Source: Norana najaformis
Lineage: Eukaryota; Annelida; Clitellata; Crassiclitellata; Hormogastridae
Length of the DNA: 64,000 nucleotides
NCBI GenBank assembly: GCA_964023275.1
Contig: OZ029921.1
Coordinates: 7,822,806 to 7,886,805 of the forward strand
Reading direction: 5' to 3'
The notes beneath the pieces were generated by a model. That model was not told the origin of the DNA. It saw only the letters and a program-made list of their open reading frames with translations, and did not search any database. Shown here piece by piece: positions 443 to 60,728 of the stretch (position 1 is the stretch's first letter; each line of letters starts with the position of its first letter). The translations under genes and the position numbers were made by a program.

Positions 443-1900
443 TATGCGTGATTTCGAAACATTCGCTGAAACGATATGAAACGAACGGACAGCATAGATT
501 ACTTAATTATAAAGAAATGCATTTTGGTTTAATATGTACATCGGAATAGCTGTTTATCGACATCTGAGTAGATACTTGAGAAGCATGTGGCTTGCAAATT
601 AGTTGGATTAAGTTTATCTTGAGTTTCACTGCGCAACAGTTGATGTGAAATTACTAACGCATAATCTTATTTATGATTACATTCCAACAACATATTCCAA
701 TTATGCATCTGATAATACAACCGTGACAAAATAGAAGGCAATCTGCATTTTAATTTCTGAGCGAAATTGCTGTATACGACAGTGCTAAAGATCCTTTGAA
801 TAAGGTAAGTCGTAACTGAAGAATCTTTTCAGGATATCTCCACAAGTTCTGTCTATGTTTCCTGTGAGTACAAAACGGGCAGATCGCATGTATGTATGTA
901 TGCATTTAAGTATTTATGCATGTATATATTTATGCATGTTCTTTTGCATGTAGTATCTATGCATGCATGTATCCATGTATGTATGTAAGAATCTTTAGTA
1001 TCGTATGGGTTGAAATATTGTAACGTCGGGCTTCCTGGCTGACATGTCGCCTGCGTAGGCCCAGTTCTGGCCGACATGAAACAAACTCTTCGGATAGAGT
1101 TGTAGACGTTTATTTGGCACCAGATGCACAGCCAAACACGAAGTCAGTCTTTACTTGCTTAAAGCTGGCCTTTATATAGGGCCATATGGACGGGAGACAT
1201 GACCATTTTTGCTCAGGTTATTCCAGCTTGCCATTTTTGGTAATCATAGCGGTTTGGCTGGGGATTCGTTACTTTGGCCTTGGAGTCCTTGGTCGGACAC
1301 CTATACAACATTCCATTTGCCTCAATGTCTTCCATTCCCTCTCGCTCTCTTTCCTTCTCTCTCTCTCTCTCTCTCTCATCTCATCTCTTCTTCCTTCTCT
1401 CATCTCTTCCTCCGAAGTCCAAAGTCATCTATCAACGCTATATATTTATGCATGCTTTATGTATGTAGATTTGCCTAACTGTAAATGCTTATATCAAAAG
1501 CCTTGGCTGACTGACAGAGCCTTTGCTTTGTAAGGCGTAGTGCATTGATTGGAGACACGGCTGAAACATCACTGTGTTCTGAGACTTAAGAAGCCGAACA
1601 CACAGTGCGGTGTTTATGTTTTCGATAGATTTCTTTATAGTAGCCGTTCAAAATAAATGTAAAGATTAAGAAGCAACAGATCAGTTCTAGGCTTTCTATG
1701 GCAGTGGTGTAGGCCTATATAGCTGTCGTAATATTCGACTTGTTTAGCAAAAAGTAATTTAGCAAAACTGGCTGTTATTGTGCTCATGCTTCAGCTACAA
1801 ATTTAAATATCTGAGGACTGATGTCAATATGGTCGTGTACTAAATGTCGGTACTGTGTTTTTCTTTCATTCTCTGGTTAAAAGAAAAAAAATTACAGACT
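1..1900. other. Spacer with microsatellites, no gene seen
   Basis: No exon with coding character was found. The stretch holds an ATT run (about 153-179), an ATT run passing into a long ACT/CTA run (about 345-441), a TATG/GCATG-rich stretch (about 884-990) and a CT run (about 1343-1405). Open frames here translate to polyleucine or polythreonine and are products of the repeats. Confidence 0.6.
363..441. repeat. (ACT)n microsatellite
   Basis: About 26 uninterrupted copies of a CTA/ACT trinucleotide follow a short ATT run. The frames through it give polyleucine and polythreonine with no flanking coding signal. Confidence 0.95.
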
Positions 1901-1910
1901 ATGAATTATA

Positions 1911-1994
1911 ATGGATCGAAAGGCTTTCATGACAGTTGGCTTTGTTATGTTTCTCGTCACCATGGTCTTGAGAAAAGCCACCACTGACAACGAG
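1911..1994 (+). CDS. Gene C exon 1: signal peptide
   Basis: 28 codons, ATG to a consensus donor GAG|GTAAGT, phase 0. It aligns with the first exon at 12105-12188 as M-x-R-[KQ]-x-F-[ML]-T-[VL]-G-[FL]-V-[ML]-[FL]-L, so the two signal peptides are homologous. Confidence 0.8.
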
Positions 1995-4099
1995 GTAAGT
2001 CTCAAATACATCCAACTATAACAATAAATTCTTTGGAGTTACCAGCATAGACTAACGGTGACATTAATATCAAGTGCAACGTGGCATATTTTCTCTGGTG
2101 CCTAAACTTTAGTGGATGAGACGGTGAATGGGAACCTCGCCAATACCTCTCGTGCCGGCTGCGCAACCTCCTAACCACGACATTGTCTGAGTTGTACCAA
2201 AAGAATACGTTGCTTAACTTCTCTTCACTTTTATGACAAAACTTGCACGATATTAATCGTAAATATATCAGGGATGAAATCAATTTGAGCCACTAAAAGT
2301 TCAAATGTATGGCTAGTTGATCAGACACGGATTTGACCAAAATACGGAGACATTAAATACCCAATATCTGTCGCAGAGCCAGAAACCATTATGATCCTTA
2401 ATAGCACAAAAGACAAGACTTGTTTGGCGAATGGAGATGCAACCGTATGCTTTGGCAAAAATACACTCGTTTTTTCTGGCTATAAGACTAAGATAAGGTA
2501 AGGTTCAAAATGGCAAGACACGAGATCTTAAAGAAATTCAAGGCGGTTGGAACGGAAAGGTAAAGAAAGCCGTATGTTTTATAGTACTATAATAGAAACT
2601 TTGGTGTTGGACGCCACAGGATGCTACCTTATCATAAGGTAAGGTAGCAAAGCAAGTTAATTACGAATTTATATGCAACTTACGCAAGTGACCAAGAGAA
2701 ACAATCGACGAGTGATAAAAATTTGTTGATTTGGCGCCTAATCAACTGTTACCCTAGAAAGATCTGTTACGTGTTACAGCTGCATCACGATCGACAGAAA
2801 CGCCCGTATTATTATGTCTGCGTCAATGGAGCAGGTCAATGTAAGTGATTTAAATCTACTGACCTGACTACTCTTATATATTTAAAAAGGAGCTTTATAA
2901 GTGTTTTGCAGTAAAGTAAGTAGCCCGGCATTACGCAGTGTTACATGATAAATGCTTACATGATAAATGCGTCTTTGCCACATGAAAATTTTCAGAAGCT
3001 CACTTTACAACGCACTTTGCAAGGCTGATCTGTGAATTCCAAACTCCAAATTTATAAAGCACTACTTTAAAACTAAGATTATTTACGAGCGCCGCGTCAA
3101 GGCAATGGGGTTGTCCAAAGATGCCATGTCAAGAACCGAGTACGGTCGCCAGAAGACCAGAGAGAGAAGGAGGAAAACAGGTGTTGTTTAAACTGAGAGA
3201 AATGGGAAAGCTGCGGATGAAATGCAACTGCATTGTAATAAACAACAAAAAGTTCAGAAACCTACGCTAAAGTGCGCTTTGGCTAATACAGCCTAATACT
3301 GTATGTGAAATCGCGCAGTAATTGTTCTATGGCTTTCTAAGTCATTCAGGTATACTAACGAAACTAATGCCGAAATGGTCTAGCTACAGTAGGCTGATGT
3401 ACACTTTCAGACAATAATCTGCATTCACCCAGAGTGTTCATCCTATGTATGCTGTATCACACCCTCTACTTTGGGTGGTTCCCTCTGGGTCCATACCCGA
3501 TGTTGTTGAATTGCGTCACCTTCGCATGAAGAACCCGGCCCTTGTAAGTTTTTGGGGCCAGAGTGTGAACGACGTAACGGTTGGAGAATCGGAGTTTACT
3601 TCGAAATTAATTAAGCTTTAGTATCGAGAGATGTCTTTTCGAAGAAGCTCCGTGATTGCATCGAGTTTATCGATCACGGGGTCCGCTGTAGAGAACTGCG
3701 GCTGTGGGGACCATCTTCGTCAGAGCGGAGTACTCCACGTCGTCCTGTTCAGGTTTTCTCTTGCCGTAAGCGATAGTGACTCGGCGCAACGTGATGATAG
3801 ACAGATCACATAAGTTTTGTCTTGTTCTTACGAAGCTACGTTGCCCTACTATACCTAAACTCACTTAGCCTAACCTATTTTTCATGATCACATCGTGACT
3901 GACCATGCCTTACGCTTCATTGTAGACTACATCATGTACATGTTTACTGAATATAGACTCAAAAGACCGTGGTCCGTGCTCAAGGTCGTGTCCTTTCCTG
4001 TGGTGGTCAGACAACTGTAGTTGTAATGGAGTCTGCTGCGAATGCTACTGCGCATGGACTGGGTCTGTCTGTCGAGAACTCTCCAGATTGCGGTACTAG
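1911..4099 (+). CDS. Secreted cysteine-rich prepropeptide, gene C (3 exons, complete)
   Basis: Joined from exons 1911-1994, 2780-2840 and 3957-4099; 288 nt, 95 residues plus stop. Exon 1 encodes a signal peptide (basic start, then an aliphatic/aromatic core). Exon 2 encodes a short pro-region with R-Q-K-R at residues 33-36, a furin-type processing site. What follows is a 59-residue mature peptide with ten cysteines, nine of them in exon 3 spaced C-x3-C-x8-C-x-C-x3-CC-x-C-x-C-x6-C. Intron phases are 0 then 1, identical to the - strand gene at 10257-12188. The start was chosen because it opens the signal peptide and gives the same 28-codon first exon as the paralogue. I recognise no named family. 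Toxin-like, antimicrobial or signalling roles are all possible and cannot be separated by sequence. Confidence 0.8.
2780..2840 (+). CDS. Gene C exon 2: pro-region with processing site
   Basis: The acceptor TTACAG| is followed by eight codons ending in R-Q-K-R, then the start of the mature peptide with its first cysteine. Donor T|GTAAGT gives phase 1. A weaker donor six bases earlier (G|GTCAAT) would keep the same phase. Confidence 0.75.
3957..4099 (+). CDS. Gene C exon 3: nine-cysteine mature domain
   Basis: The acceptor TATAG| enters in phase 1. The 46 codons before the TAG at 4097-4099 hold nine cysteines, including the CC-x-C-x-C block and a final V-C-R. Two tryptophans lie in the loop between the second and third cysteine of this exon. 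Confidence 0.82.
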
Positions 4100-4197
4100 C
4101 AAGACCAGCAGCTGCACCCATTAGCGGAAGGTCAACTTCAGCATCGTCGCCATGAATTAGAAGACATTTCATGGCTTCAATTAGAAAACATCGGTGA

Positions 4198-4212
4198 AAT
4201 AAAATTAATAAA
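4198..4212 (+). promoter_or_regulatory. Poly(A) signals of gene C
   Basis: Two AATAAA hexamers (4198-4203 and 4207-4212) lie about 100 nt after the stop codon of gene C. Confidence 0.6.
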
Positions 4213-4261
4213 CTTATTCAAATAATTTGTTTCTAGTATTTAGGTCATTTTCAAGGACATC

Positions 4262-4886
4262 ACAGGAAATGCATTGAAACAAGTAGAAACCTTTAAGTAT
4301 CTTGGGTCGATAATGAATGCTAAAGCAGAATGCAAACATGATGTTAAGAACAGGATTAAGGCAGCGTGTCAAAAAATGGCAAGACCTATCGAGCGTATTA
4401 TGCGATGTGAAAATGCCGGTTCATCTCAAAGGAAAGGTGTACAAAACAATGATAAGACCAGTGATGATATATGGAGCAGAAGCATGGACACTGACAAAAG
4501 AGCAGGAGAAGCTGCTGGAGAGAACAGAAATGAGAATGCTGCGATGGACACTTGTAATCTCACTGAAAGATAGGACAAGGAATGAGTATATCAGACAGAA
4601 ATTGGGAGTGGGATGTATATCTGACAAGGTACGAGAAGCCAGGTTGAGATGGTACGGTCATGTGATGAGGAGAGAGGAGGAAAACTGCATTAAAAAAATT
4701 ATGCAAACAGAGGTTTACGGACGCCGCAGTCGTGGACGACAAAAGAAGAGATGGGGAGACGTGATTCAGCAAGAAGCTCCTCCGATTGAAGAAAGAAGAT
4801 AATGGACAGAAATAAGTGGAAAGAAGGATTCGTGTGGCTGACCCCTCTCCTAGGAGGGATTAATTCCAGCCAAAAAGAAAAAGAAG
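4262..4886 (+). mobile_element. 5'-truncated RTE-type LINE, C-terminal part
   Basis: The 3' end of an endonuclease/reverse-transcriptase ORF. One frame (about 4274-4375) reads the ETFKYLGS motif. After a frameshift, a second frame (4317-4802) carries the TMIRPVMIYGAE, LKDRTRNEYIR and REARLRWYGHVMRR motifs typical of the region after the RT domain in these elements. It ends in an A-rich tail near 4860-4886. The catalytic RT and endonuclease parts are absent and the frame is broken, so this is a dead copy. Confidence 0.85.
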
Positions 4887-4889
4887 GAG

Positions 4890-5985
4890 AAGAAAATTTA
4901 GGGTCATTTTCAACGCCAATGTAAAATCTATAATTAGTGAAGATAACCCCTTATCTCCCCTTGCTTTATGGACGAGTCATTGTTCTTATCTTTACACAAT
5001 AGATCTTACCATCGATGTCGACATCGCTAGTTAATCAGTATACGCTGAAAAACAGGCCGTTCCTTCTTCATTCTGCTTGAAAGCAGAGTTGTTATTGATT
5101 GCCCATCGGGCATACAAATTTATGTTAAAGCGCAAAACCTTGCGATATTTGCAAAGCAAATATTAAACTGATGGTTAAAATAGAACATGCATGACCTATT
5201 TACGAATGCATGGCCATAGAGGAAACAAATTGCTTTTAAGCCTACATTAGTGACTATAGTGCTTTAAACAATGCTTAACGTTCGTGGAGCTTAGGCCTAC
5301 GCTTGTGCTGTATGTCAGTCCAGAACTGTATACTCATAAGTAGAAAATCGTGAGGCCATTTTAGAGTTTCAATTCGACTGTAGCTAAACCCAAATGACTT
5401 CAACAAAGAGGCTCACTGCTGGATATGAGGCACTTGGATATGAGGCACTAGGCAAAGTCAATGACAGAATATTGGAGCACGTTCAGTTTGATGATACGAG
5501 CCACCAGGAAAAAAGAATAGCATCTTTTGGGGCTTCACGGCAACATCGCTCGAGGCACAACGACAGCTGCCCAGATCAGAAGCCCAACTTGATGTACAGT
5601 AAGATGGTAACTTGAGGCAATGTCAGCTGCGCCAGTGTCGCCACAATACAACTATCGATCTGGCTCTACTGATCAAGGTAGAGTAGAGACAGATTGTTTA
5701 TGGCGTTTTAAACTTGACTAATTATTGATTCTAAGGATAAAACTTGCAAATTTAACTGGTTGATAGCTGAGTAAAGATGATTGTCTTTTTCAAACAGATG
5801 CTATTCTTTTTTCCTGGTTGCTCGAATAATCAAACTGAGTGTGCTACAGCCTGATCTAAGTTTCCACCTCATACTAGTATGCTATTATTGGTATATATGG
5901 TTTCGGGGTTGCAGTGTGTGGCACATAATGGAACTGGTGTCCAAGCCGTGCAGTCAGAACCATTGTTCACTGTACGTCCATCTAG
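4890..5985. other. Spacer, nothing recognised
   Basis: Short open frames at 5394-5615 and 5781-5990 lack splice signals, recognisable motifs or family resemblance. No convincing gene or repeat boundary is visible. Confidence 0.4.
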
Positions 5986-5989
5986 GATG

Positions 5990-6510
5990 AATTGAAAACA
6001 GTCCACAGGTCGTTAACTGATTCCGCAGGATGTCCTTAGCCGCGTAGGATGTCGTAGTCGACTGTGTCAAACGCGGCGCCTACACGGAGAAGAGTGACCA
6101 GTGCCGCTAGAATCAATGGCATGAGAAATGTTTGAGCAAGACCACAACTTCCTAAAACCGGGTTGCATCTTCAGCATAAAGTTACTTGTTTCTAATATCA
6201 AGCCATCTTCCGAGCAACTCTTTTCTCAATGATTTCATATGGAAAGGTGAGATTGTTGCTTGGCGCATAGCAGGTTATGTTATCTTTTAGCATTTATGTT
6301 GATGATTTTCCCAGTGCTCGAAAAGTATCTCGTCGCCTGCATTCAGGAACCAAAGAAATCAGAAGAGAATTAGAAAAGAAGTTTTAGCGAAAGAATATCA
6401 GTTTTTAGTTTGAAACCAGTCCCCAGGTCGTTCCTTAGGATGTTCTATGCCGCTTGATAAGGCTTTCGTAGTTGACTATATCAAAAGCGGAGTCTGTGGA
6501 CACAGACGCA
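5990..6510 (-). mobile_element. Relic reverse-transcriptase fragments (two related blocks)
   Basis: Blocks at about 5995-6090 and 6415-6510 are related. On the - strand they read AAFDTVDYDIL and SAFDIVNYESL, close to the A motif of LINE reverse transcriptases (F-D-T-V/I-D). Stops and frame breaks follow within 10-20 codons. Assignment to a clade is not possible. Confidence 0.45.
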
Positions 6511-7006
6511 TCCACATACCACTGATGGACTTCTTTTTTCTCAAAGGGTTTAATATGAAATAGGAACAGTTAGGAACAGTCAAACTTTATTGCGTGATGG
6601 ACTGTTGGACCTATTGTAAATATTTATAGATTAAATAAACACTGAGGAGGTTTGAAGTATGCTATACTTCTAAAAACTTAAGAATTTAACATTATTGTTT
6701 AATGTTGATGTATATATTCATCTTCTGGTTTTGCTCCAGAGAGGAGAGGAAAATGGGAACGGAGTCATGCACCGCTGATATCGTTATTGTTATTGTTTTT
6801 CTCATCATTATTGAAAGCAACAACCAAACAAATAATCAGTAACGTCACTCATTTAATTTTTCACTTATTATTTTAATACTATCATTGTTTTCTTACGTAA
6901 TTTTTGTTTTCAATGAACTTTCTAGATTCATTAGTGCATGCATATTGAATGCCTTAAAATGAAGCCAATTTTTATAATATGCCTTTCACGTGTTCTGAGG
7001 AACGTT

Positions 7007-7179
7007 TCAGACTCTGATGTAATCGATGACTTCTCGCTGTTTACAGACGGGGCCATACCACCAGTGACAATAGCAATCGCAGCATAGCAACCCTCTGTCG
7101 CACGAACACCCAATCTTACCAGCCCATCCAGGCCAGCCACACTTTACTTCACATCCGATACCAGGAATTTCAGAATAAA
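7007..7179 (-). CDS. Secreted cysteine-rich peptide, terminal exon B
   Basis: A homologue of the two other terminal exons. The acceptor TTTTTTAG| enters in phase 1; 56 codons lead to a TGA at 7007-7009. Cysteine spacing is C-x3-C-x10-C-x-C-x5-CC-x-C-x-C-x7-C, with V-C-K at the end of the framework, as in V-C-R and I-C-R of the paralogues. No signal or pro exon for it was found between it and exon 10257-10393. It could be an alternative last exon of the gene starting at 12188 (phase 1 fits), or belong to a gene whose first exons are lost or unrecognised. Loops rich in W and G differ strongly from the paralogues. Confidence 0.72.
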
Positions 7180-7479
7180 CTAAAAAATAAACAAATTTTA
7201 TTTTAATTAATAGAACATAACAGTCAAATACTAGTATTTAAATAATGAAGTACAGCAACTATGCAAGTGGGGTTAGAGGTCTGTCATGTTAAACTGAAAT
7301 ATCTCATTCAATTTTTTGCCATTCATTTTTTCATGCCTTTCAAGCCAAGGATCATTCACCTCAAAGGACAACATTGACCAGGTCTTGCGTTGGCTTCTAA
7401 TAAATAAGAACATTCGGGATGTTACAATTTTAATCATGTATAGTATTTTAGGATGTAATGACTCCGATAACGCCGTTAT

Positions 7480-7690
7480 CATAATTCACAAGGCATCAAT
7501 GAATGGTTCCAGTGAGACTGTAGTTACAAATCAAAGTGCGTTGGAGAAACCCAGTTGAAATCCGACGGATCAGGGAAACCAGAAGTCAGACTATGGTGGG
7601 TGAGCACGTTGAAAAAGGTACGTTTATGGTTAGACCTGAATGACTTCAATAAACTGACATAATTGTGCAAGAGAAGAGTGTGATGAAAAA
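7480..7690 (-). repeat. LINE/SINE 3'-tail repeat (family with CACAAGGCATCAA core)
   Basis: Shares the ordered blocks 'cgccgttatcata-ttcacaaggcatcaa', 'gaccagaagtcag' and 'ggtgagca..ttgaaaaaggta' with copies at 8498-8690, 60966-61230, 61343-61450 and others. Non-coding. Confidence 0.6.
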
Positions 7691-8390
7691 CTGAGTAGTA
7701 TGATGCACTTGTTTTAGGGTAGGATCTTGTAGGCAGTCAGTGATATCATCTGTGGAGGCTGAAACATTGAGCATTTACAAAGGGCAGTTACTGGTGGAAG
7801 AGTCGGTGGAATGCGGCTTATGATGGAAAGAAAGCTAAGCAATAATGGGAAAGTCTTGGGACCAATATGACTCATAAGGAGAGATATTTTGACAATGGAA
7901 GAGCTGGACCAGGTTATAAGGAGATCAAGTGTATGTATCATCACATAAGTTTGGAAAGAGATATACTATTTAATATTGAAGCCGGAAAGAAGATTCAGGA
8001 ATTTTTGTGATGCATTGTTCAAATTATCCATGTGTACAAAAGTCATCATTAAAGATTTGATACTTAATAGCAGAATAATAAAACATATATCTAGTTCAAA
8101 TTACATTTGGAACTGGCACCCTCTTTACAGCAACACTCAGCCAACTGCACTGTTTTTCTCTTGTTGACACCAGTTTCTGTTCCACTGTGACTTAGAGATC
8201 GGCGTGTGGCTAAAATAAGACGAAAATCATTTAAAATGAGTTTAACTGATCATTGCTTGTACCAGAGATAGAAATACTTCCTAAGAAACTGATGATGACG
8301 CTGATGATGCTGATGACACTGCTGCTGTTGATCATGATCATCATCAGCAGCAGCAGCGGCAGATGATAATCATAATTATAATGATGTGAT
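7691..8390. other. Spacer, nothing convincing
   Basis: Weak open frames at 7714-7944 and 7976-8167 have no motif or splice support. A cysteine triplet read on the - strand at about 8115-8130 lacks the spacing of the peptide family and lacks usable splice sites. Confidence 0.4.
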
Positions 8391-8442
8391 GATAATAATA
8401 ATAATAATAATAATTATTATTATTATTGTTATAATTATAGTG

Positions 8443-8498
<56 letters not shown>

Positions 8499-8690
8499 TA
8501 GAAACTTCTAATGCGCCGGTGTCTAATGCACAAGGCACCAACCGATGGCTCACCAAAGCCAAGACGCAATCGGGTCAGTATCCAGAAGGTCAGTCCACAG
8601 GACAGAGAGGTAGCCTACGGTGGATAAGCAATTTGAAAAAGGTAAGTTTTAAGTTGAGAACGAAATGTAACGAGATGTAGAACACACTTG
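8390..8690 (-). repeat. ATA microsatellite plus 3'-tail repeat copy
   Basis: (ATA/ATT)n at about 8393-8498 abuts the conserved block 'cttctaatgcgccggtgtctaatgcacaaggc', which continues to about 8690. The microsatellite sits at the 3' end of the element, as it does in the copy at 60865-61230. Confidence 0.75.
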
Positions 8691-8954
8691 CAAAAAGCGA
8701 CTGTGGCCTGAACTGAACCGATTTCAGACGGTGCAGATGACGATGTTGTAGTGCCAGCTCTACAACATCATCAAATGATGGCAGGCCACGGATCCTTTAA
8801 GAAGTGTGGTGCAGTGTAGACATTATATGAATGCAAGGCAAACAGGATCTATAGTCGCAGCTGTTTTGAATCGACAAAGTTCACCTCTTCTTCGTCTGTC
8901 TGTCATCTTGGAACAACCTCCTGCCAATTGCATATGCGCAACATTGCCCGACTC

Positions 8955-9080
8955 GCATGTATGTATTATGCATGTATGTATGTTTGTATGTGAGTATGTA
9001 TATATATATAGGTATGTAGTTAGGTAGGTAGTTAGGTAGGTAGATATGTAGGTAGGTAGGTAGGTAGATAGGTAAGTATG
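8955..9080. repeat. (GTAT)n/(TAGG)n compound microsatellite
   Basis: GTAT units pass into TAGG/TAGA units. The - strand frame through it gives a T/Y/L/S-rich product without coding support. Confidence 0.85.
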
Positions 9081-9489
9081 CAGTTTAAACCATTCGAAAT
9101 ACAACTTGAACATTGTCAACCAAGCGGGCGCAAACCTTCTTACGCTGAGTAATGTCATAGCCAAGCGTCGCAGTTCACTATAAGTGAGAGCGGAGCAATA
9201 TAAATAATGTGCTTGTATCTAATTGAATTTCTATTTATTATGAAGTATCGTTGTATACTTTTGATTCGCCTGTTCATGAATTAATTATAGTTATGCTTCA
9301 TCAAGTTATGTATTTTCGTGTAATTTTCAATATGCAAAATGAAATAACGATACGACCTGCACGGTATCTCCAATAACGAAATTATTGGGTTCCATTTCAT
9401 AGATCATTGATAGGCCTAAGAGATAAATGCATCGAAATCTGTTTCCAGGAAACAAGTCTGTATTTTCTATAATATGTCAGGTTATTATT

Positions 9490-9905
9490 GTTTTTTACCC
9501 GAGGTATTTATGATCCCTCAGGATTTCAGAAATTAGGGACTGCGTTGTTCTAGGGTGGCTAATCCTCGTTGATGTCGTGCTCAATGTCAAAAGTGCTGTG
9601 AAAAGAGATTGCCCTGAAACGTTGGATGGCCAACGATAAGCGTTATTATTATTATTATTATCATCATTATTATTTTACCCGAGGCAGAAATTATCCCTCA
9701 GGAACTAAAAAATTAAGTTATGAGTACAAAAAGATCTCTGAGAAATCAGGCCTCGTCCCAGTATTATAATTGTTATCATTATTTTTTATTGGTATTATTA
9801 TTATTATTATTATTAATATTATCATTATGGTTTTTTATTATTATAATTGTTATGATTATGGTTATTATAAGAATTTTAGTTATTATTATTACGAAAATTT
9901 GTAAA
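9490..9905. repeat. Two small 'ttttacccgagg..atccctcagg' repeat ends with ATT runs
   Basis: The block 'ttttacccgagg' followed about 15 bases later by 'atccctcagg' occurs at about 9496-9523 and 9674-9703. An inverted copy lies at about 31257-31287. Each copy sits near ATT microsatellites (about 9640-9673, 9790-9890, 31060-31205). Confidence 0.6.
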
Positions 9906-10178
9906 ACGCACAGTCACACAGAAATATGAATCTGAGGTGCGGTTAGTTAGCCGCCAGGCGAAGAAGAAGTTAGATATCCAAATGTTTGAAAGGCAGTGAG
10001 TAATAAGGAGGTCTCTGGCGTTCCTTAAAGGGAGAATAAGATTACTTTAAATTTGATCAGACCTTTTTTAATCTGATCCTGAATTCTTCAGGAAGTTAAT
10101 GCAGTTGATAGATTGGGTTAAAGAGGTTGTTCGAAGGGGTGCACGTAGCACTACACGCTAGTGATATCTAAACGTTTG

Positions 10179-10184
10179 TTTAAT
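10179..10184 (-). promoter_or_regulatory. Poly(A) signal (ATTAAA) of gene A
   Basis: ATTAAA on the - strand, about 73 nt after the stop of gene A. Confidence 0.45.
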
Positions 10185-10256
10185 GCAATTGCCAGTACTA
10201 TCGTCATATTGAGGATGGCTCTCAAGGTGAAGGTTTTCGGCCATGGATCTTCGTGT

Positions 10257-10393
10257 TTATCTATAGTAATAGTAAATATCGACTGGCCGGCATATGGCAT
10301 TGGTTGAACTGCAAGAACACTCACAGCATGGCGCCTCACACCAACAGAGGTCAGATCCATAGACGTAAGAGCAGGTAATGCTGCAGCTTCCAC
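10257..10393 (-). CDS. Gene A exon 3: nine-cysteine mature domain
   Basis: The acceptor TTTGCAG| enters in phase 1; 44 codons lead to TAA at 10257-10259. Nine cysteines include CC-x-C-x-C and a final I-C-R. The tail is acidic and then tyrosine-rich. Confidence 0.82.
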
Positions 10394-12188
10394 CTGCAAA
10401 CAATCAGATTAACGCACGTACTGAAGTAAGATGGAACTAACCATGACGCCTTCTTTACATCAGCAGATTATTTAAATCGGCAGATCAATGCTTACTTTGC
10501 GTTGCATTTACTTCGGATTCGAGACTGCTTAGGAAAAGATTTGAAACTATATATCTGCCCATGATTAGGGCCTACTCTTGTCACCCCAGTATCAGAAACT
10601 TGCATTCCTGTTACGATGGAGCTGCTCAAAAAGCTACATTGTGGCAGAACACTGCAGCCAGGTTCGCTGCAGAGATGTCGAAGTTCGAACAAATCACCCC
10701 TTTACTTCGAGTCTTGCTATGTACTGTACTTAAATCTTTGCATTATCTTCTTCTTCAGCAAGTTTGGCTTATAATTTATGAAATAGAGAACTTCGGCCAA
10801 CCGCAATACTTAAAATCAGTCCTCATTTTCCAGATCTGCCATTGTTTTACAAGGTATCTGTCTTTCTCAGTTGTGCCAAAAACTAGAAATGTTCTTGGTG
10901 GACGAGCTCTTTCGGTTGCTAGACCTTTCTGTAACTTTCTGCATCTGTTCGTTCTGCTCAGTCTCTTGTGTCATTTCAGTCTCAAGGCTTACCTTTTCGG
11001 TTCGCTTATTCCTATAGACTGTCTCTCAATGTCTTTGGACTTACTTTCTACATATTGACCTGACTGCGGTTTGATTTTGGTGCGCCATCAGTTATTGCCT
11101 TGTGCATTAGACAATGGCGCTATAGAAGTTGCAAATTACATATTACAAGTTATCTTGACATAATGAAGACAAGCGCTATCAATTGTAAACTAGCAAAATA
11201 TGATGATTTACGGATCAGCTATTAGCATGAGTCTCAATATATTGAAGCAATAAATGAGCTCAACTGTTTTTGTAAATTGCGGAGAACGAAAGAAAACGAG
11301 ACAGTAAGAGACAAAAAGAATGGATCGATGGATTGCAGCGATTCAGATTGTAAGGAAACTAACCTTCACAAATGACGTCACGTTTTGAACGCAGATTTCT
11401 CGCCTGTACAGAAAACAGCATTTTTTCGCAAATGGACTTATTGTTAATGCAACTGCTTTTCCTTGACTTAACTCAAACTTAATGTTAATGCAACTGTCTT
11501 TCCTTGCCTTTTCTCAAACAGCGTAAATCTTCCAATATAAACGATCTGTGCATTCTATTTGAACCTTAATATCGTGTACAGTATCTACTTTCTGCCAATA
11601 TAAGTGTTTACGTGAAGCTCTTGTACAAGGGACTGTATACATATTTTGGTTTCAATTCGCAGCGAATAGAAGCCGTAGCTGCCTCAGCAGGTCCTGCTTC
11701 TAAAAGCTGCGTGAGATCGAGGTTATTTGTTGAAGTACACTTCAACAAATAACCTCGATCTCACGCAGCTTTTATCGTTATCGTTTGAGAATGGATCAGC
11801 GGTATCGGTTGATTGTTAACGCGTCGGCCATTCACCTTAAAGCCTAGGGTTCAAATTTCGCCTTATGTCATGCGTAATTGATAATAATTATATCTGGTAA
11901 TAATCATAATTGGCAATACTTCGTTGCGCTGCGTATCCCGTATAAAGACCACTTGTCCTGGTGATCGATCCTTTTGATTTTGGACCGGATGACTATACCT
12001 GTTGTTGACAGTGGCGTGTAATAAATGCGCGAATGTATTGTAGCCTATACTTAACTTTAACGAATAATTAGACGTTGACGTCGTTAAGTGCGATTGTGAC
12101 TAACCTTATTCCCAACCAGGTCTCTGCAACTAACCGACGACGCCAGAAGAAGAACAAGTCCAAGAGTCAGGAAAAGCTGACGAGCCAT
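10257..12188 (-). CDS. Secreted cysteine-rich prepropeptide, gene A (3 exons, complete)
   Basis: Joined from 12188-12105, 11403-11364 and 10393-10257; 261 nt, 86 residues plus stop. The signal peptide (residues 1-21) has a leucine/valine core and is homologous to that of gene C. The pro-region ends in R-S-K-R at residues 33-36, the same position as R-Q-K-R in gene C. The predicted mature peptide of 50 residues has ten cysteines, spaced C-x4-C-x3-C-x8-C-x-C-x3-CC-x-C-x-C-x6-C. Intron phases 0 and 1 match gene C exactly. The gene points toward gene C, so the cluster is partly inverted. Furin-type cleavage and secretion are inferred from motif and position. The function is unknown. Confidence 0.8.
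10870..11150 (+). repeat. Retroposon 3'-tail copy
   Basis: Matches 57355-57560 over 'ctgctcagtc..ttgtgtcatttc', 'gactgtctctcaatgt', 'gacctgactgcggtttt' and the terminal 'gatgccttgtgcattagac..ggcgctatagaagtt' block. It lies inside intron 2 of gene A. Confidence 0.6.
11364..11403 (-). CDS. Gene A exon 2: pro-region micro-exon
   Basis: A 40-nt exon between acceptor TGTACAG| and donor GAAG|GTTAGT. It encodes eight residues ending in R-S-K-R and then the first mature cysteine. It converts phase 0 to phase 1, as exon 2 of gene C does. Confidence 0.72.
11701..11774. repeat. Perfect 36-bp inverted repeat (foldback), 2-nt spacer
   Basis: The left arm 11701-11736 and right arm 11739-11774 are exact reverse complements, separated only by 'ac'. 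Neither arm has another copy that I could see in the window. Confidence 0.97.
11785..11880 (+). repeat. tRNA-like SINE head
   Basis: 'tggatcagcggtatcgg' resembles an A box, and 'gggttcaaatttcgcc' about 45 bases on resembles a B box. There is no complete cloverleaf, so a tRNA-derived SINE is more likely than a tRNA gene. Confidence 0.4.
12105..12188 (-). CDS. Gene A exon 1: signal peptide
   Basis: 28 codons from ATG to the donor AAG|GTTAGT, phase 0. The core is rich in L and V and is followed by S-S-V-S-C. Length, phase and sequence pattern equal those of exon 1911-1994. Confidence 0.8.
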
Positions 12189-20559: not shown

Positions 20560-23500
20560 CCGTCCCCACTCGAGGAACTTGTTGATATTTCAACGCAACT
20601 ACATGTAGCTATCAGAGAATGTTGTAGTACGTAAGCGTTCAAATTATACACTAAGAAACCATAGGTAAATGGAGCGACTACGAACCGAATGTCATGCATA
20701 TTAATTAATGTGCATATGCATTAATTGTTGCGGTACTGGTTAAGAAGATTACGGCAACAGTGGTGGTGATTAGTTTAGCAACGAGAAAGAAGATTCAGAT
20801 ACAATTAAAGTTGTGATGAAAATTACTACAATGATGATGAGAAGTAGTAGTAGGCAAAAAGTGGGCCTAACAAAACCATTGCGGGGCGACGACAGTGATG
20901 CCTACCACCAGTTTCCGAAACCAGCGTGGTTCATGGTCGAGGGCTTCGGAGCGAACAGCTGGCTAATGGACGTAGTTCTGCTCAGATCCATGTAGGAGAC
21001 GTTACGGTAGAGATGCGATGGAGTCGAATCAGATCGTTTCAAGAATTTCTTGGCTGCCTTTTCGTTGATGCGATTGTAGACACTGAGAATCTGCCACCCG
21101 CGACGCTGCGGGTTCTTCTTTCCAACGATGAATGGCTTCAGGTAGTTGTTGTTGAAGTAGGAGAAACTAAACATTTGAAAAATTAGACTGGGATCAGCCA
21201 CGAATTCGACATAAGATGGCGGCCTTTCGTGAATTTAAGTGCGATGCGATGGCCAATCAGCAGTGCTCGCGAGACTTATCTTGTGATTCAAGGATCTCGA
21301 TTCTGTTAAGCGGAGACCGAGTAACGATGGTGGAAAATTAATTATTTGATCACGATTGCTTCCGTTATCACAAAACATTAAAGTGCCGACGATAGCTGAT
21401 TGGACAGAGCGCTCAACTTGTAACGCGGAGAGAATGGGTTACAGCCTCTCCTTAGACGGTTACTGTGTAGGGACCTTGAGCAAGTCCTTCATTCATAATT
21501 GCTTCGTACCTCAGATTCAGATTTACAGACCTTGCGCGCGTAATAAATGCATAATAATAATAATAATAATAATAATAATTGTGATTATTATTTACCAGCG
21601 AAATTTTGGAATTGAGTGCTATGCATTACCATGTACTGCCCCTGGCTTTCACTGCCCCAGGGACCAGCATCTAAACAGAAAACGAGGGCCTACGCAATGT
21701 ACGCTACACGTCGAGATATGAAGAGAAAACTGACAAGAACTTAATGGTCTATTATTACCGTTCTCTAAGCAGATGGTGGCCTTTTTGGTCAGTTATGTCT
21801 TCAATTCCGCCCATCACGTGATCAATAAACTGCAAAAAATGTGCAGCGCAAATAAAATTTTAGATAGTCGCAGTTAGAACAAACGTGCGGTTGTAATGAT
21901 TGAAGAAGTACGTTGGAAGAAGTATGTATTGAAGAAGAAGACAAAGTATGATTGAAGGACACCGTATGTAATACTGTAAAAGAAAGATGATTGAAGAAGG
22001 ACAAAGTATGTAATAATCGTAATCGTAATCGTAATCGTAATCTCGAAATTTCTACAGCGCTCAACGAAAGCTAAGTCGCGGGAACCAGCTTATTCACAGG
22101 CGCTCAGTCAAAACAGAATCGATAGGCAAAAGGGTCAAGATCCAGGAGTCAGGCACTCAGACAGTCGGACGGCTACGGTGGATGCTGTTTGAAATTGAAG
22201 CGAGAAGAGAGACAAGAGGAAGAGGAAGAATCAGGATAAGATTTCTGGAAAAGAAGTGTTTTCAGTCTTGAGTGAAAGACCTGCGCAGAAACTGAAAGAG
22301 GTGAAGTGTTGGTGAGTTCGTATGATTGACCAGACAACTGTCGCAATTCTGGCGGGAGTTTATTCCAAAGGGGTGGGGCAGCTATGGCTATGGAGCGATT
22401 TCCAAATTTTAAGGATGAGGTGACGGGAGGGCGAAGAAGTGTTAGGACAGATGAGGAGCGGGTTGAACGGAGTGGTTGGATAGTAAATAATTGACGAAGA
22501 TAGGAGGGTTGGGAGGATTGAAGTGTGTTGTAGGTGAGGGATAAGACTTTGTACTCTATTCGTTCTGGTATTTTAAGCCAGTGCAGTGATTTGAGAACAG
22601 GGGTGATGTGATGGTATTTGGGGGTTTTGGTGACAGCACGTGCGAGAGCATTCTGGATAGCTTGTAGGCGATTTATCTGGGTTGTGTCAATATTGAGGAA
22701 AAGTGAATTGCAGTAGTCAAGTTTTGCATGGACTATGGATGTGGCAATGATAGATGCGGTTTTGAAGTCAAGCATAGGACGGATTCTGCGAAGGTCGCGG
22801 ATATGCATAAAGCAAGAGCAGGAAAGATGGCTGATATGATCAGAAAAAGTAAGGTTCTGGTCGAAAATAACACCTAAATTACGGACAGAGGAGTTAGTAT
22901 TAAAGGTGTGGGTGGAGGCAGAGTCCAGGCTGAGGGAGATAGAGGGGTCAGGAATTTTCTTCAGCTGGTCACGTAGGCCTATAAGTATGAATTCAGTTTT
23001 AGATGGGTTCAGGCATAAGAGATTAGATGTCATCCAAGAGGAGATTTGTTTAACCACACAAAGAAGATGATCTGTAGATTCATTGAAACAATTTGGAGAG
23101 AAAGAGATGAATAGTTGGGTGTCATCAGCATAGAGGTGATGGTCAACGGAGGATGCTTTAATGAGTGAACTGAGTGGGGTAGTGTAGAGGATAAACAGAA
23201 GAGGTCCAAGAACGGAGCCTTGTGGAACTCCGCAAGTAAGAGGGCATGACTTAGAAGAGGCTTCCGAAGTTTTAACAGAGAAAGAGCGGGAGGAGAGATA
23301 AGACTGTATCCATAGGAGAGCAGTGTCAGCAAAACCAAACCAGGTTGAAAGTCGGTGGAGTAAGATATTGTGATCTATGGTGTCGAAGGCTGCAGAGATA
23401 TCGAGGAGACAGAGGCAAGAAACCTGTTGATGAGAAATGGCAAAAACAAGCTTGTTGTAGAGAGATGTCAGCAGAGTTTCGGTTGAGTGGCGTTTAGTAA

Positions 23501-26500
23501 AACCAGACTGGTGTGGGTTAATGAGTGAGTTAGAAGCTAAATAGTTATTGATTCGAGAGAGGACAATCCGTTCAGTTAATTTGGAGATGAAAGTCAGGTT
23601 AGAAACAGGCCGGTAGTTAGAAAGGATTTCCTTGTCGAGAGATGATTTCTTGAGAAGAGGGGTAACAAGAGAGTGTTTAAAAAGAAGGGGAAAATTTCCA
23701 GTAGAGAGGGAGAGGTTAACTATTTTGGTAATAATTGGAACAAGGACAGATGCACAGTCTTTCAATAAGGAGGTAGGTATAGGGTCAAGTTCACATTGTT
23801 TGTTTGGGAGAGATTTTAGCAGATTTAGTATTTCGGTCTCTGATGTAGGTTGAAAAGCAGAAAATGAGGATCGAGGTGGGGAAGGTGGACTGTCATAGGT
23901 GGAAGAGGGAGCATCAGCAGCTGGATTGTTGGAGGTTTTGGAAAGTAGAGATTGAAGAGAGAGACGGAGGGTACTAATTTTGTTCGAAAAGAAAGAACAG
24001 AACGAGTCGGCTATTGAAGAAGACGGAAGAGAATTTGGAAGTGGACTAGATGAGTTCCGATGGAGGAGCTGGTTAATGGTTTTCCAGAGAAGGCGAGGGG
24101 TAGAGGATCGAGAACGAACTAGTGAGGAGTAAAATCTTTGTTTAGTTGCAGTAAGAAGGCGATGGTATTTATTTGTGGCAGATTTAAGGGCAGAGAGAAG
24201 TTGAGGATCCCTGGTGCGTTTATAAGCACGCTCAAGGCGTCGCCGGAAAGATTTGAAGGCCTGGAGATAGGAATTGAACCAAGGATTGTTAGAGTGAGAA
24301 CGGGATTTGGTAATAATAGGAGCATGCTTGTCAAGGATAGTGGAAAGAGTGGTGTTATATGAAGAGAGAAGGTCATTCAGGGAGGAGGGTGGATTTAACA
24401 CGAGATCAGAACAGGAAATATCTTGTGTGAAGGCTTCAATATTTATTGAACTGATGCGACGAAAAGAATGAAAGACAGGATCAGGACGTGGTGTCGGAAG
24501 AATGTTAAGATATGTAAAGATGGGGTAATGATCAGATGGCGAGTCAAAAGAGAAAGATATATCAGGTGATAGAGTGGAGAACGATGACGTGATAATGAGG
24601 TCAAGTGTGTGATTGTGAATGTGGGTGGGGAATTTGACATGTTGAACCAGATTAGTTGAGGACAATAGGGTGAGGAATTCAGAAGCAAATGTGTCAGAGG
24701 GGTTATCGACATGTATATTGAAGTCACCTGTAATCAGAAATTCATGAGGTGTAGTGGCGGCAGTAGAGAGGAGGGTGGTAAATTCTTTCAGGAAGACCGA
24801 TGGAGGACTTGAATATGAAGAGGAGGATGGAGGGCGATATACATTAAAGATAGTCAGATTTGTGTGAGGAAGTTTAAGCGTAACTGATGCACATTCAAAA
24901 GAGTGGAAACAGTAACCAGGTGAGTCTAAAACTGTGGCAGGTTCTCGGGTGAGAAAGGCAATACCACCGCCAGTTGGATTTTTATGAGAAGGGCTAGATG
25001 GTTTGCAAGGACGAGGTGTACTGTAAAGATGGTAGCCAGGAGGAATACAGTCTTCATATTGAGCAAGAGTGGTGTTTAAATTAAACCAGGTTTCAGATAA
25101 GGCAAATATGTCAGGCGGGTGAGAAGAGAGGGCTATATCACTGATTTCTTGTGAATGTGCAGGATGTAGTAATGATCGAATATTTAGCGTGCAAAGTAAG
25201 AAGCGGTTGTTGTCAGTATTTTGAGCATTGTCGAGGATGTTGGAGGAAGAAATTCTGGAAGGAGGAGGACAGGTAGGAGGTGAGGGAGGAGGACATGAAT
25301 AAAAATCCAGTGGGCCAGGATTTGGGTGGATGTCCCCGGAAAGCAGGATTAGTATGTTGAAGATGGTATGGCGGGTGAGGTGCTGTGGTGGTCGCCTGAG
25401 AGATGAAGTTAGGAAGAACGATAAAGGAATAAAATACATACGTCCATACTGCATAGTCGCAGTGCCAAATTGGGCGCAGTAAGAATGTTTGGCTGTAGGA
25501 ACAATGTAGGGCAAGCGGGTGTGGAAGGGTTGGCAACTAATATGGAAGGCGATCATGAAACGTAGACCGAAAATAAGAAGAATGATTGAACTGTACATTA
25601 TGTGATCTAAGATGACGTGGCAGTTTGATGAAGCTAAAATGGCGGAAGGTAAAGACGCAGGCGAACGAGTGCAAAAAGGACAAAAAATAGGCGAATCTTA
25701 AGTTGATTAAATGTAAAAGAAAGATGATTGAAGAAGGACAAAGTATGTAATACTGTAAAGGAAAGGTGATTGAAGAAGGACAAAGTATGTAATACTGTAA
25801 AGGAAAGATGATTGAAGAAGGACAAAGTATGTAATACTGTAAAGGAAAGATGATTGAAAAGGACAAAGTGTGTAACACTGTGAAGGAAAGATGATTGAAG
25901 AAGGACAGTGATTACACAATACGAAGCAGTTAACTACACCGGGTACAGAAATCACGACAATATCTGATTGTTCTAGGTTGTTACTCAAAGAATTACATTG
26001 TTGGAATATAGAAAATTTTCATGTTAAATATTCAATTTTTGCTTGTCACTGATCGTATTATAGTCACTTTGTATTGTCAAACCAGTATTATAACCAGTAT
26101 TATAACCAGTATTATAACCAGTATTATAACCAGTATTATAACCAGTATTATAACCAGTATTATAACCTTACTCAGCATCAGGATTGCTTTGTGTAGCATT
26201 ATTTGAGGTATTCCTCAGATGTCTTCAGCGATTGGTTTTAACAAGAAATCGCACACTGGTTACATTTGTAGACAGCAACATGTGCGGCACATATTGGGTA
26301 GCAGAAAACTCACCCGGTAGATAATCTTTTCGCCCATCGCTATCTTTCTATGTTCAGCTCGTTTGACTTTTAGGAAAGTCACAAGCGGCTTAATGGTGCT
26401 GCCCTATTAAACAGAGAATCAACTGGAGAAAATGGATGAACGGAAATGTGGACTGAGGGATTGGTGAATTAAGCTTACATATATAATTTGTCGATCATCA

Positions 26501-28298
26501 ATAGATTGATGAATTATACATATACATAATTCATTAATCCATCCATTATATATATTGACTGTATCTAGGCCTATAGTGTTATATAGTCTCTCTCTCCAAG
26601 GGCAAACTCAGTTGAGCGAAGTCGTGTGTCGCCACGACCTTCTGTCTTGGGCTTTTCTCCATGCAGTAAACAACCCATAACCATGTTGATCCAGATCCTT
26701 TACACGTTACATACGTAGCATTATATATATTATATATATTATATAAATTGATTAAATAACTAAAGATCAACTGCTAAGAGTATGGTTACAATGGTGATGT
26801 TTTTAACTTCGAAGCTAAGGTGCATTTTTGAGTTTATTGCTACAAGACCAAGAAATCTAAGCTTCAGTTACAAATTTTTTAAAGTCGAAAAACCGTGATG
26901 ATATGTTAACATAGAAATTGTAGGACACGATTATTCAAATGGAATGGTTACCATGGCGATGTTTGTGAAGTAGACGACGACGACGGTGCTCGTGATGAAC
27001 AGACGACGGTGTTTGAAGTGTTCCGAGTCAAGCAGGACAGCCAGGGCGAAGGCTATGGCTCCCCTTAGGCCACCGTAGGCCATGACAAACTGGTCGATTT
27101 TCGTCATCTTCACGACACGAATCATGTTGGCAAAGTATGTCAGTATGATCACACCTATAAAGACGAATCAACGAACATTTTCAATCATAGGTGTAGAAAT
27201 CACCCAATTAGTACGCAGCTCAATCGACAACAGTCATGAGATCAGTGGTCTGAGGTAGAAGAATCTGTTGGCTTAACCGCAAACTTGACAAAAGTGATGT
27301 CGTAACAGAGTAGCTTTTCCTAAGGTAGCTTTACCTGCAAAGCTCGTGATATCGAAATGTCAATTTCCTGTTTCGCAATCGGATTTAAATTTCGGATGCA
27401 AAGTGAAAAGCCGAAGCGTAAGCAATCATTTGTCATGCTAACTTGTGATTTGGGAATTTATTTAAAGCTATATAAACTCGTTTCAAATGATTATTACTAA
27501 ACGTATAATAGGCCCCTATATGATGTTTAAGTTCACTCAGTTGAATAAGTATATGATTGATGTGATAAATTCTACTCAACTATTGGCCTAAACAAGTTCA
27601 CACCCGTAGGCAAAAGAATATCGAGATGAAGGACCTGTCGGATTATTGTTCGATCATCTAATTATTCGATCTTTCGGGGTTTTCAGCTATGGCACGCAAT
27701 GTCAAGCAGAAAATCTATCAAAAATCGACTAGCAAACCCAATACATTAAACTTCTAATAATAAACTGTAGTTTCTAAGCAACGAAGTAGACATTTTTGAG
27801 TTAGTAGACAATATGTGTCTACATTCGGGCCACATTTTTCTTACCAGAAAATACTTCCTTGAAAAATCAGTTGACTAACCAACTGACTATTTAACCAGCG
27901 AACTGATGCATTATATTTCAATTCGACATATACAAGCATTAATACACATGCGATTGAATTACCAATGGTACGGAAGATGAGGCAGAAAATGAGGGTTAGA
28001 ATGACAAAAGCCGTGTCCCAGTGATGAGTGTCGCTGACGGCGGATACTCCGATGTACATAAAGATGATCGTCTCGCTTGTCGAGGCAGCCAACTTCAGGA
28101 CGAAGCGAATTGTCGTCTGAGACTTCTGCGAGAAATTCGCCTCAACATACTTGCGCATTGTGATTCCGCAAAACGTACAGCTAAGGAAAAAGAAGTATAC
28201 AACATGGTTCAAAAATTAAACTATAGTACGCATAGTTGGTGCTTCACTGGCCCGAAAGCGCATTATCTATCTGTCTGTCTGTCTGTCTGTCTGTCTGA

Positions 28299-28330
<32 letters not shown>

Positions 28331-31300
28331 GTTGGCATAGATAGACTACCTCCCGGAAAGCGGGAAGTAGTCTACAGGATAGCCTACGTTGATTTCAAAT
28401 TTCTTAATGCATTTTAACATAAATTTTGTCGTTTCAAACAGTTAAATCATCGACTGTTGCTATGAACCTTACAACTGATTCGCACGTGTCTATTTGGGTC
28501 TTTTGGGTCGATTGTTTCTCAGTAATCAGCCAAATCTACACTTTAAAATGACCCAAAATGGGTTTCCAATAGAAGTAGGTAGTTAATTGTCAGTCCGAAA
28601 ATTGTTTCCCTTTACAGGTCTACACAGAATATTTTTAAAGCATCAAATAAATAAATAATTAATTAAATAAGCAACCAGATGAATAGCGGCTTACGATATG
28701 ATGCCGGACAGGTGGAACATTTCGGCGACGATGAAAGAGAGGTAGCCGATGACGAAGACTATCAGAGGTTCCATGATGCGAACGTGTTTAGTGAAGCGAG
28801 ACATGAACCCAGCGAAGAGTCCGAGAACCATTCCGATCCCAGTGGCACCGAAGACGATTACGAAGAAGGATCCCACTCCAGCAACGACGTCCACCGGAAG
28901 AATGTTCTCGGCCCCGATCTCACTCAGGCCCTCGAACAAATGGTAGAGCACCTGTCCATGCAAAGAAACATCAATAGAGAAGAAGTCCATCGACGGATGC
29001 AGGACAGAAATGATGTAAGGATACAAACAAAGAAAGACGATAAGGAAAAGAATGAAGGAAGGAAGGAAGGAAGGAAGGAAAGAAGGAAGGAAGGAAGGAA
29101 GGAAGGAAGGAAGGGTGTATGGAGAAAGGAAAGAAGGAAGGATGTGACAATAAATCATCAATACAGTGAAGAAAAGGGAATCACAAAGTGCGGTAGACAA
29201 GTAAGAAGCCAATGAAGTTTGGAAGAAATGAGAAACTAAGCAGATAAGTCAACAAAGATGAGTGAACGATTTTGAAAAAATATATAGATATATAGATAGA
29301 TAGAAAATTGAAAGAGAGAAAGAAAGAAAGAAAGAAAGGCAGACAGACAGACAGTCGGATAATTGAATAAGTAAATAATGAATTGATAAATGAAAATATC
29401 ATTTATTCTGACAAAGTTCTCTCTGTATTACTCGTAATTTGTTTTAGCGATAACAGTCTCTGTCACGTTCCTCGCCTCATGTGTCGTCGTCGTCCATCAC
29501 GTGGTAGAGCACCTGTCCGTGTTGATGTCCTCTGGTGATCACGGACGGTAGCTGGAGGTGCGCCATCGGCGGGAAAATTCGACACTCACCTGACGTGAGG
29601 GAGTACCAGACAGCTGACTGATGAAATGCAAGACTCGATCGAGGGATTGTCAAACTAGTTTATAAGGGGAGAAAATGACTTTAGTCAGACAGATGCCAGA
29701 CCGATGTTAGACCGATGCAGACCGAGAGAGGGGCTGAGCCTTTCGTCAGTTGATGTTAAGTCTCAGTTAAATAACAATAAAAGATTCTATTCGACTTCTA
29801 CTCGGCCTCGTGACAGTCTCTCGCAAGTAGGCCTGAGTTTGACTGGAGACATTAACCTGGTAAATGAGTCATTCGCGTTGAAATACATAGAAAAGCTAAA
29901 CGGGCAGATAAGAGATTAGGAAATCAATTAGTTTATTGCTGTTTTCTATCTATCTATCTATCTATTTTTCTTACCACAGAGATGCCATCGTTCAGCAGTG
30001 ATTCCCCGAAGACGATGATGTAGAGAATTTCGTTGACGTGAACAGATTCGAAGACCGCCAGAACAGCCACCGGATCAACGGCAGCCAATAAAGACGCAAA
30101 GACGAGCGAGTCGAGCAGAAGGAGTGGATGTTCCAGATTCTGAAATCCCTTGCCCTCGTAAACACCCCAGAGGGCAAACCCGAGAAACAGGGTATTCAGA
30201 AGGGTACCGAGGATGGCGTACAGAAGAATGGTGCCTAGCTGGTCGAAGAAGGACCTGGCAGGCATGAAGTATCCCGCATCAAGGATAATCGGAGGCAGGA
30301 TGACGAGGAAGAAGAGGGTGGTGTTCAGCTCGTAACCTTTCTCGTTGGCGAAGTATAGGAAGATACCAAGGATGACTCCTATGATGATGAGGAGGCAGCT
30401 TTCCGGAAAAATCTTTGAGAGGTATTTTTCCCAGTGAAAGACTAGAAACAGAAAACACTTTCGTCACGATTTACAGCGATTATTATGTAGAAAGTTCTGT
30501 AGTGATTGGGCGGGTTACCGATGGCGTCCCTGCCTACGTCAAGGCGCCTCTGAGCGTGAGAATGCCGGCTCGCGTCCCAGTCGTGGCTTATTTCAGGGAT
30601 TTAAATCTCGGGCTACCACGGTCCGTACGCGGGGACCTTAAATGGATGGCGTCTAATCAAACGGGCAGCGGTGGTGAAGGATCTCGTGTGATAAATTCAT
30701 TGAAAAATTAGCAGTGTCAAGGCCATACTGTCGCTATAGAAAAAACACGTACATTTACATTTACATCTACCTAGAATCTCGGTGTATTCTCGATTCGTTT
30801 CTCGTATGGTCTACAGACCAAATGCCTTGTCCGACGTTCGTCTATGCAGTTAACTTATTGTTCGATGATTCAATTCATGGAGTCGTAATTTACTGAGGTC
30901 TGTAACGTAGGCCTACAGTACTGTATGTTTTTTAACTTTGCGCTGATAGGATGTGCAAGAAGGTCACAAAATATGAAATAAAAGGCAAGAATTTGGACAG
31001 TTTTACTTAAATTAGAGTAATATTATATTAAATTATTTCTATTGGTGTTACTATATTAATAATGATAGGCCATAATAATAAAAGGCCCTAATAATAATAG
31101 GCTCTAATAATAATAATAATGATGATAATAATGATGATGATGATGATAATAATAATAAATAATTATAATAGTGATAATAATGATAAATAATGATAAATAA
31201 TGAGACGTAGTCGTTCCAGATGCTCATTATTGTCTCCGGCCAAATTTTGTTTACCACCTGAGGGATTATACCTACCTCGGGTAAAAAAAATATTACTGTT

Positions 31301-31893: not shown

Positions 31894-32035
31894 CTTGATT
31901 TTCCTTCTAGGCTCTGATTTTCAACAACTGAAAATACGCTGTCAGCGACGTTGATCTATTACGATTTTGAAACAGAAAACACTGTCAAAGCCTCCGAAAC
32001 GATCTAACAGTTTGAAAATCACACGAAGCCGATGA

Positions 32036-60697: not shown

Positions 60698-60728
<31 letters not shown>

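Follow-up and report, generated by a model that had tools for sequence, protein, structure and literature searches.

What do the very short exons encode that share one arrangement of cysteines in a 64-kb stretch of the genome of the annelid Norana najaformis, and to what kind of gene do they belong? The stretch (contig OZ029921.1, here C9, positions 7822806-7886805; hereafter the window) comes from an assembly of 608,420,607 bases in 17 contigs, and we read it as part of a 204-kb region that surrounds and includes it. Three terminal exons in the window carry the cysteine frame. Two of them complete three-exon genes, which we call P1 and P2, and the third is of another type, P3. Judging by the features of the sequence described below, these genes are very probably real and would encode precursors of the secreted cysteine-rich type. 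We lean slightly towards the fuller account that they make up a local family of processed, disulfide-rich effector peptides of the secreted type, serving in defence or secretion.

The cysteine frame and two three-exon genes

The frame, C-x3-C-x8..10-C-x-C-x3..5-CC-x-C-x-C-x6..7-C, occurs in three places in the window and in none of 100 first-order Markov shuffles of it, which agrees with the view of an earlier, sequence-only reading of this DNA that its recurrence exceeds chance. All three terminal exons lie where that reading had placed them, its seven exon coordinates are correct, and the two genes for which it had described complete signal and pro exons, P1 and P2, are right in order, strand and phase, each with an RxKR site and a tenth cysteine. 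Loosening the cysteine pattern brings in nothing more than a simple repeat that reads as poly-cysteine (window positions 60698-60769). Between pairs of terminal exons, the cysteine codons differ (TGC or TGT, the sole difference open to a cysteine column) in 4/9, 3/9 and 7/9 of the shared columns, and these silent changes at shared cysteines suggest that the exons are old enough for silent change to have accumulated.

Compared with each other, the P1 and P2 signal exons reach a score of 39, with 23 as the best score among the other 861 window frames that begin with ATG. Because one low-complexity frame in the 204-kb region scores 37 against the signal exons, this similarity is weak when taken alone. 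The mature peptides would be 59 residues long in P1 and 50 in P2, with ten cysteines in each and a net charge, counted as K+R minus D+E, of +2 and -4, respectively. Both precursors show the broad traits of secreted cysteine-rich prepropeptides, namely, a putative signal peptide, a dibasic pro site and an even number of mature cysteines. The acceptor of P1 exon 3 (actgaatatag) has, by eye, a poor pyrimidine tract.

Two observations concern the immediate surroundings of P1. At C9:7822545 on the plus strand, 0.3 kb to the left of the window, lies a partial stretch resembling the P1 signal exon (LPVGFVMFLVTMVLAKS), perhaps a relic of duplication. Directly after P1 (window positions 4244-4802, plus strand) there is a fragment that looks by eye like an RTE-type retroelement at its reverse transcriptase end.

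A cluster shaped by duplication and inversion

Within C9:7757417-7833190, a stretch of 76 kb on one contig, ten terminal exons carry the frame in open form, two of P1, two of P2 and six of P3 type, and the frame was not found in the rest of the 204 kb. The second copies of P1 and P2 each have all three exons, so the local, expanded family proposed earlier is supported. The pattern scan behind this count demands all cysteines and registers open copies only. In genome-wide protein searches with E up to 10, in which only the best candidates were scored, a P1 query gave five matches, four in the cluster and one elsewhere (E 0.84), and a P3 query gave seven, six in the cluster and one elsewhere (E 4.96). 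Neither query found anything significant outside the cluster, and both stray matches lack the frame. These searches read through stops, and they revealed no further broken copies of either type in the cluster. The P3 search, which places no requirement on cysteines, returned the same six copies, and all six have the nine cysteines of the terminal exon.

The second P1 copy lies on the minus strand, with exon 1 at C9:7809447 (2/84 bases different), exon 2 at C9:7808627, and an exon 3 that is identical over all 143 bases (C9:7807037-7807179), in surroundings whose blocks are 81-96% identical. A comparison of C9:7797000-7818000 with C9:7818000-7838500 accounts for this arrangement: the two segments are tandem units with the same order, except that window positions of about 470-8355 are reversed. 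Simple repeats lie at both junctions of this inversion, and it is possible that the inversion is an assembly error. The inversion explains why P1 and its copy stand on opposite strands, plus and minus, respectively. It also explains why the P3 exons of the window have no signal exon: the inversion split that gene, and exons 1 and 2 that match it by position lie at C9:7820512 and C9:7820905 on the opposite strand. The third copy in the window, listed earlier beside P1 and P2, is therefore no gene of its own and forms the terminal part of a split P3-type gene.

The P3 genes differ from the other two types in several respects. Their signal exon is not of the P1/P2 kind and occurs six times, as MATNQVVWIVLLCLAILSPSFESQVHS and close variants, always on the plus strand. 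We placed it to end at CAG in phase 0, with the donor GTAGCC in four of the six copies and GTAGCG and GTAGAT in the rest. Each of the six signal exons is followed by a second exon that is basic (LQA(V/L)K...) and for which a phase-1 end is possible. Among the five copies that were joined, three have GTAAGT as the donor of this exon and two have a weaker one. An extra exon precedes the last one, with a phase-1 acceptor, a KR site and CC(C) followed by a further cysteine, and it has one frame open and the other two stopped in 6/6 copies. In the window it fits either an internal exon (8105-8209, donor AAT/GTAATT) or an alternative terminal exon. When it is read through into the last exon, four of the joined copies have twelve cysteines and the fifth has eleven, and when it ends at its own stop, four copies have four and one has three. 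Between 130 and 400 bases from the start of the extra exon, ATTAAA occurs in 3/6 copies and AATAAA in 0/6. The earlier description as ten-cysteine peptides consequently holds for P1 and P2 and fails for P3, which has nine cysteines in the last exon and more in the extra one.

Features of the cluster within the window (window positions; copies elsewhere in C9 coordinates)
Feature	Position	Strand	Details
Inverted block, holds P1 and P3 terminal exons	470..8355		Relative to tandem unit A, C9:7802802-7810948
P1 exon 1, putative signal peptide MDRKAFMTVGFVMFLVTMVLRKATTDNE	1911..1994	+	84 nucleotides; phase-0 donor GTAAGT
P1 exon 2, pro segment, RQKR and Cys1	2780..2840	+	61 nucleotides, 20 residues; phase-1 donor GTAAGT
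P1 exon 3, predicted mature peptide, nine Cys, stop TAG	3957..4099	+	Identical 143-base copy C9:7807037-7807179, minus
Two AATAAA polyadenylation-like signals of P1	4198..4212	+	99 and 108 nucleotides past the stop
P3-type terminal exon, nine Cys	7007..7179	-	Five plus-strand relatives: C9:7757417, 7766569, 7777105, 7788727, 7804021
P3-type extra exon, KR, CCC and fourth Cys	8091..8209	-	Phase-1 acceptor; in-frame stop
P2 exon 3, predicted mature peptide, nine Cys, stop TAA	10257..10393	-	Second copy C9:7812783-7812878, minus
P2 exon 2, RSKR and Cys1	11364..11403	-	40 nucleotides, 13 residues; phase-1 donor GTTAGT; second copy C9:7813875, minus
P2 exon 1, putative signal peptide MARQLFLTLGLVLLLASSVSCRDLVGNK	12105..12188	-	84 nucleotides; phase-0 donor GTTAGT; second copy C9:7814986, minus

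Divergence among copies and the readings it allows

How have the copies changed since they were duplicated? Among the six P3 copies (15 non-independent pairs, cysteine sites left out), the core from C6 to C10 differs by 0.055 (0.010-0.113), the loops from C2 to C5 by 0.262 (0.175-0.356) and the tail by 0.294 (0.198-0.385). The 3' flank differs by 0.135 (0.110-0.162) and the intron before exon 3 by 0.212 (0.155-0.268), or by 0.187 on a slightly different stretch. The signal exon differs by 0.083, compared with 0.172 upstream of it. Ratios of nonsynonymous to synonymous differences (pN/pS) in these same pairs are 0.97 for the loops, 1.93 for the tail and 0.57 for the core, which reads CC(D/H)CYCHWW(Y/H)GPVC over the six copies. 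The P3 core is thus constrained, and variation is free in the loops and tail, above the level of the 3' flank and not clearly above that of the intron. In the P2 pair, exon 3 differs at 15/137 sites, compared with 131/1811 noncoding sites, one difference of 15 bases stays in frame, and nonsynonymous divergence (dN, 0.097) is lower than synonymous divergence (dS, 0.242). The corresponding noncoding figure for the P1 pair, 525/2050, is probably inflated by non-homologous stretches and was not used.

These patterns can be fitted into one scheme. In each precursor, a signal exon is followed by a short pro exon that is basic and contains a dibasic site, which in P1 and P2 is RxKR of the furin type. 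The cysteine frame is carried by the terminal exon, and the joins are in phases 0 and 1. A signal peptidase and then a furin-like protease would free a peptide of 50 to 60 residues in P1 and P2, which about five disulfides may hold together and which could act as an extracellular effector in host defence or in a gland or skin secretion. After duplication, the cysteine scaffold and the short core would be kept and the loops and tail left free. The P3 copies were duplicated at a spacing of 9-15 kb and the 18-kb P3-P1-P2 unit once, and an inversion of 8 kb in one unit later turned P1 round and divided a P3 gene. The exons, their phases, the copies, the duplications, the inversion, the kept cysteines and the variable loops can be read directly from the sequence, and expression, processing, disulfides and role are inferred. 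Variable loops on a fixed set of cysteines, as in the P3 branch, are common in defence and secretion peptides.

Several points weigh against this effector account. Support for a family of this kind comes from sequence alone, and the hydrophobic segments of the P1 and P2 signal peptides were judged by score and by eye only. The donor of P3 exon 1, with GTAGCC in just four of six copies, is weak, and the variable donors of P3 exon 2 together with the odd cysteine count of one copy (P3b) suggest that some copies may be decaying. Positive selection on the P3 loops was considered and dropped, since divergence in the intron close by is of similar size and the intervals overlap. Loss of constraint would give pN/pS values like those of the loops and tail, and in the other two types the P2 pair has a dN below its dS and the P1 pair an identical exon 3. 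The intron control accordingly lowered our confidence in the account, from a modest leaning to a slight one. The charges of P2 and P1 are unlike those of typical cationic antimicrobial peptides. A protein search revealed no relative in other species, although this search needs shared five-residue words and its annelid coverage is perhaps small. Finally, the two AlphaFold models reach middling or low confidence, with a predicted local distance difference test (pLDDT) score of 68.6 for P1 exon 3 without Cys1 (three sequences) and 58.1 for P3.

Alternatively, the peptides could be secreted signalling molecules, hormone- or growth-factor-like and released by dibasic pro cleavage, which strikes us as rather unlikely. 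Such cleavage is typical of peptide hormones, RQKR and RSKR stand directly ahead of Cys1 in P1 and P2, and the conservation of the core over six P3 copies would suit a signalling role. However, ten clustered copies, with P3 loops and tails that vary at or above the intron rate, would be uncommon among ligands that act on a fixed receptor.

A further alternative, compatible with the effector account and in our view unlikely, is that the inversion created a fused gene in which the P3 terminal exons of the window serve as alternative last exons of P2. P2 exons 1 and 2 share the strand of these exons, stand upstream of them and offer a phase-1 donor that matches, the P3 acceptor is pyrimidine-rich, and no signal exon like those of P1, P2 or P3 was found on that strand between 7180 and 10256, where other types would escape the scan. 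Yet P2 exon 3, with its own stop, intervenes, and an orphaned exon is the simplest reading. It is tempting to speculate beyond this, towards an effector family that is confined to annelids and has a disulfide framework of its own, new in kind, where the P3 signal-pro module can make two mature peptides (a short CCC-x-C form, or one with nine or twelve cysteines) and the inversion brought P3 exons under P2 by cassette capture, but we consider this extended version doubtful.

That the array consists mainly of duplicated, formerly functional exons now drifting is quite improbable: an inversion did split one P3 copy, P3 exon 2 donors vary, one extra exon lacks a cysteine and the P3 loops differ about as much as the nearby intron, but the frames of all ten terminal exons are open, protein searches with P1 and P3 found no more broken copies in the cluster, the P3 core differs far less (0.055) than its flanks (0.135-0.212), the two P1 copies agree at all 143 bases of exon 3 within blocks that do differ, and the 15-base difference in P2 stays in frame.

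Within about 81 kb, the array brings together duplication, loops that vary freely on a scaffold that does not, and an inversion by which a gene is broken or rewired. With ten copies and a cysteine frame that has found no match, the cluster, in an assembly of 17 large contigs, offers a clear set of genes for work on expression, structure and activity. It also suggests that profile-based gene finding could overlook peptides that are split across exons of 40-170 bases. To our knowledge, few families of cysteine-rich peptides have been described from annelids.

Genomic surroundings and known peptide families

Apart from the cluster, the window holds a long frame of a long interspersed nuclear element (LINE) with endonuclease and reverse transcriptase relatives at 22173-25697 on the minus strand (best relative 71% identical over the residues searched). 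Exons of a sodium/proton exchanger follow at 26934-31920, also on the minus strand. Five pieces of it were searched at an E limit of 1e-150, and the two proteins that passed came from Helobdella robusta (71%) and Ridgeia piscesae (60%), which points to an annelid host, probably one of the clitellates. By eye against the Helobdella protein, the C-terminal part of the exchanger seems to be repeated at 20902-21234 (minus strand). At about 37000-47700, on the minus strand, phospholipase C-gamma-like exons (SH2, catalytic Y box, C2) were recognized by eye from the list of open reading frames. To the right of the window (C9:7909234-7922651), recurring tblastn matches revealed a tandem array whose units repeat about every 3,213 bases. 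The portion scanned contains no Rfam family, and its open frames of at least 130 residues are two copies of a 167-residue frame, 3,213 bases apart.

Do the peptides belong to a family already known? Searches of Pfam, the PDB and a large protein database returned no relative beyond chance matches, in line with the earlier statement that the framework fits no named family. With E up to 10 and the spliced P1 and P2 precursors among the sequences scanned, Pfam gave matches at chance level only (B12D, 0.16; Peptidase_M61, 0.35), no macin, defensin or antistasin profile appeared, and the BRICHOS profile had no match in the spliced precursors. A nine-member profile found no match among PDB sequences, and a text search of one literature library for four peptide motifs found no paper containing them. 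The fold prediction that had been proposed for the mature region did yield a four-strand model of P1 exon 3; Foldseek matched it to nothing in the PDB, which, given the weakness of the model, is a weak test of the fold.

The general layout has parallels elsewhere. MgCRP-I of Mytilus and conotoxin-like precursors combine a conserved pre-pro region, dibasic cleavage and a variable mature region in an expanded family. They differ from the peptides described here in the number and frame of their cysteines and in phylum.

Closer in taxonomy, macins and BRICHOS peptides are among the described annelid cysteine-rich families (PMC6780910). Macins and other peptides with the cysteine-stabilized alpha-beta (CS-alpha-beta) fold, such as theromacin and neuromacin of leeches, are likewise small, secreted and rich in cysteine, with up to ten cysteines or more (PMC5116183, PMC6780910). 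The CS-alpha-beta order (C-x3-C, later C-x-C) is present in all copies, and Cys1, C2-x3-C3, C4 and C7-x-C8 of P1 and P2 can be overlaid by eye on the CS-alpha-beta array described in PMC5116183. In contrast to macins, the peptides described here have an adjacent CC followed by C-x-C, a dibasic pro segment and an acidic P2. Moreover, the P1 exon 3 model (pLDDT 68.6) has a strand at residues 7-12, where the CS-alpha-beta helix would be expected, and proline flanks C-x3-C on both sides. The predicted strand at C-x3-C, the prolines of P1 and the lack of a profile match tend to speak against CS-alpha-beta membership.

BRICHOS antimicrobial peptides of the arenicin type are also annelid, secreted and disulfide-bonded (PMC6780910), whereas the second exons of P1 and P2 are just 20 and 13 residues long and no BRICHOS profile matched the spliced precursors. 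Antistasin-type inhibitors of leeches are secreted as well and have domains held by five disulfides (PMC12731043); they differ in that the peptides here carry no Pfam antistasin profile. The cysteine-rich salivary proteins of Hirudo medicinalis share with the present family a signal peptide, cysteine richness and clitellate origin, but the patterns printed for them are of the CX5-14CX7CX8 or CX7-17CX9CX8 type, unlike the CC-x-C-x-C of the peptides encoded here (PMC7191736).

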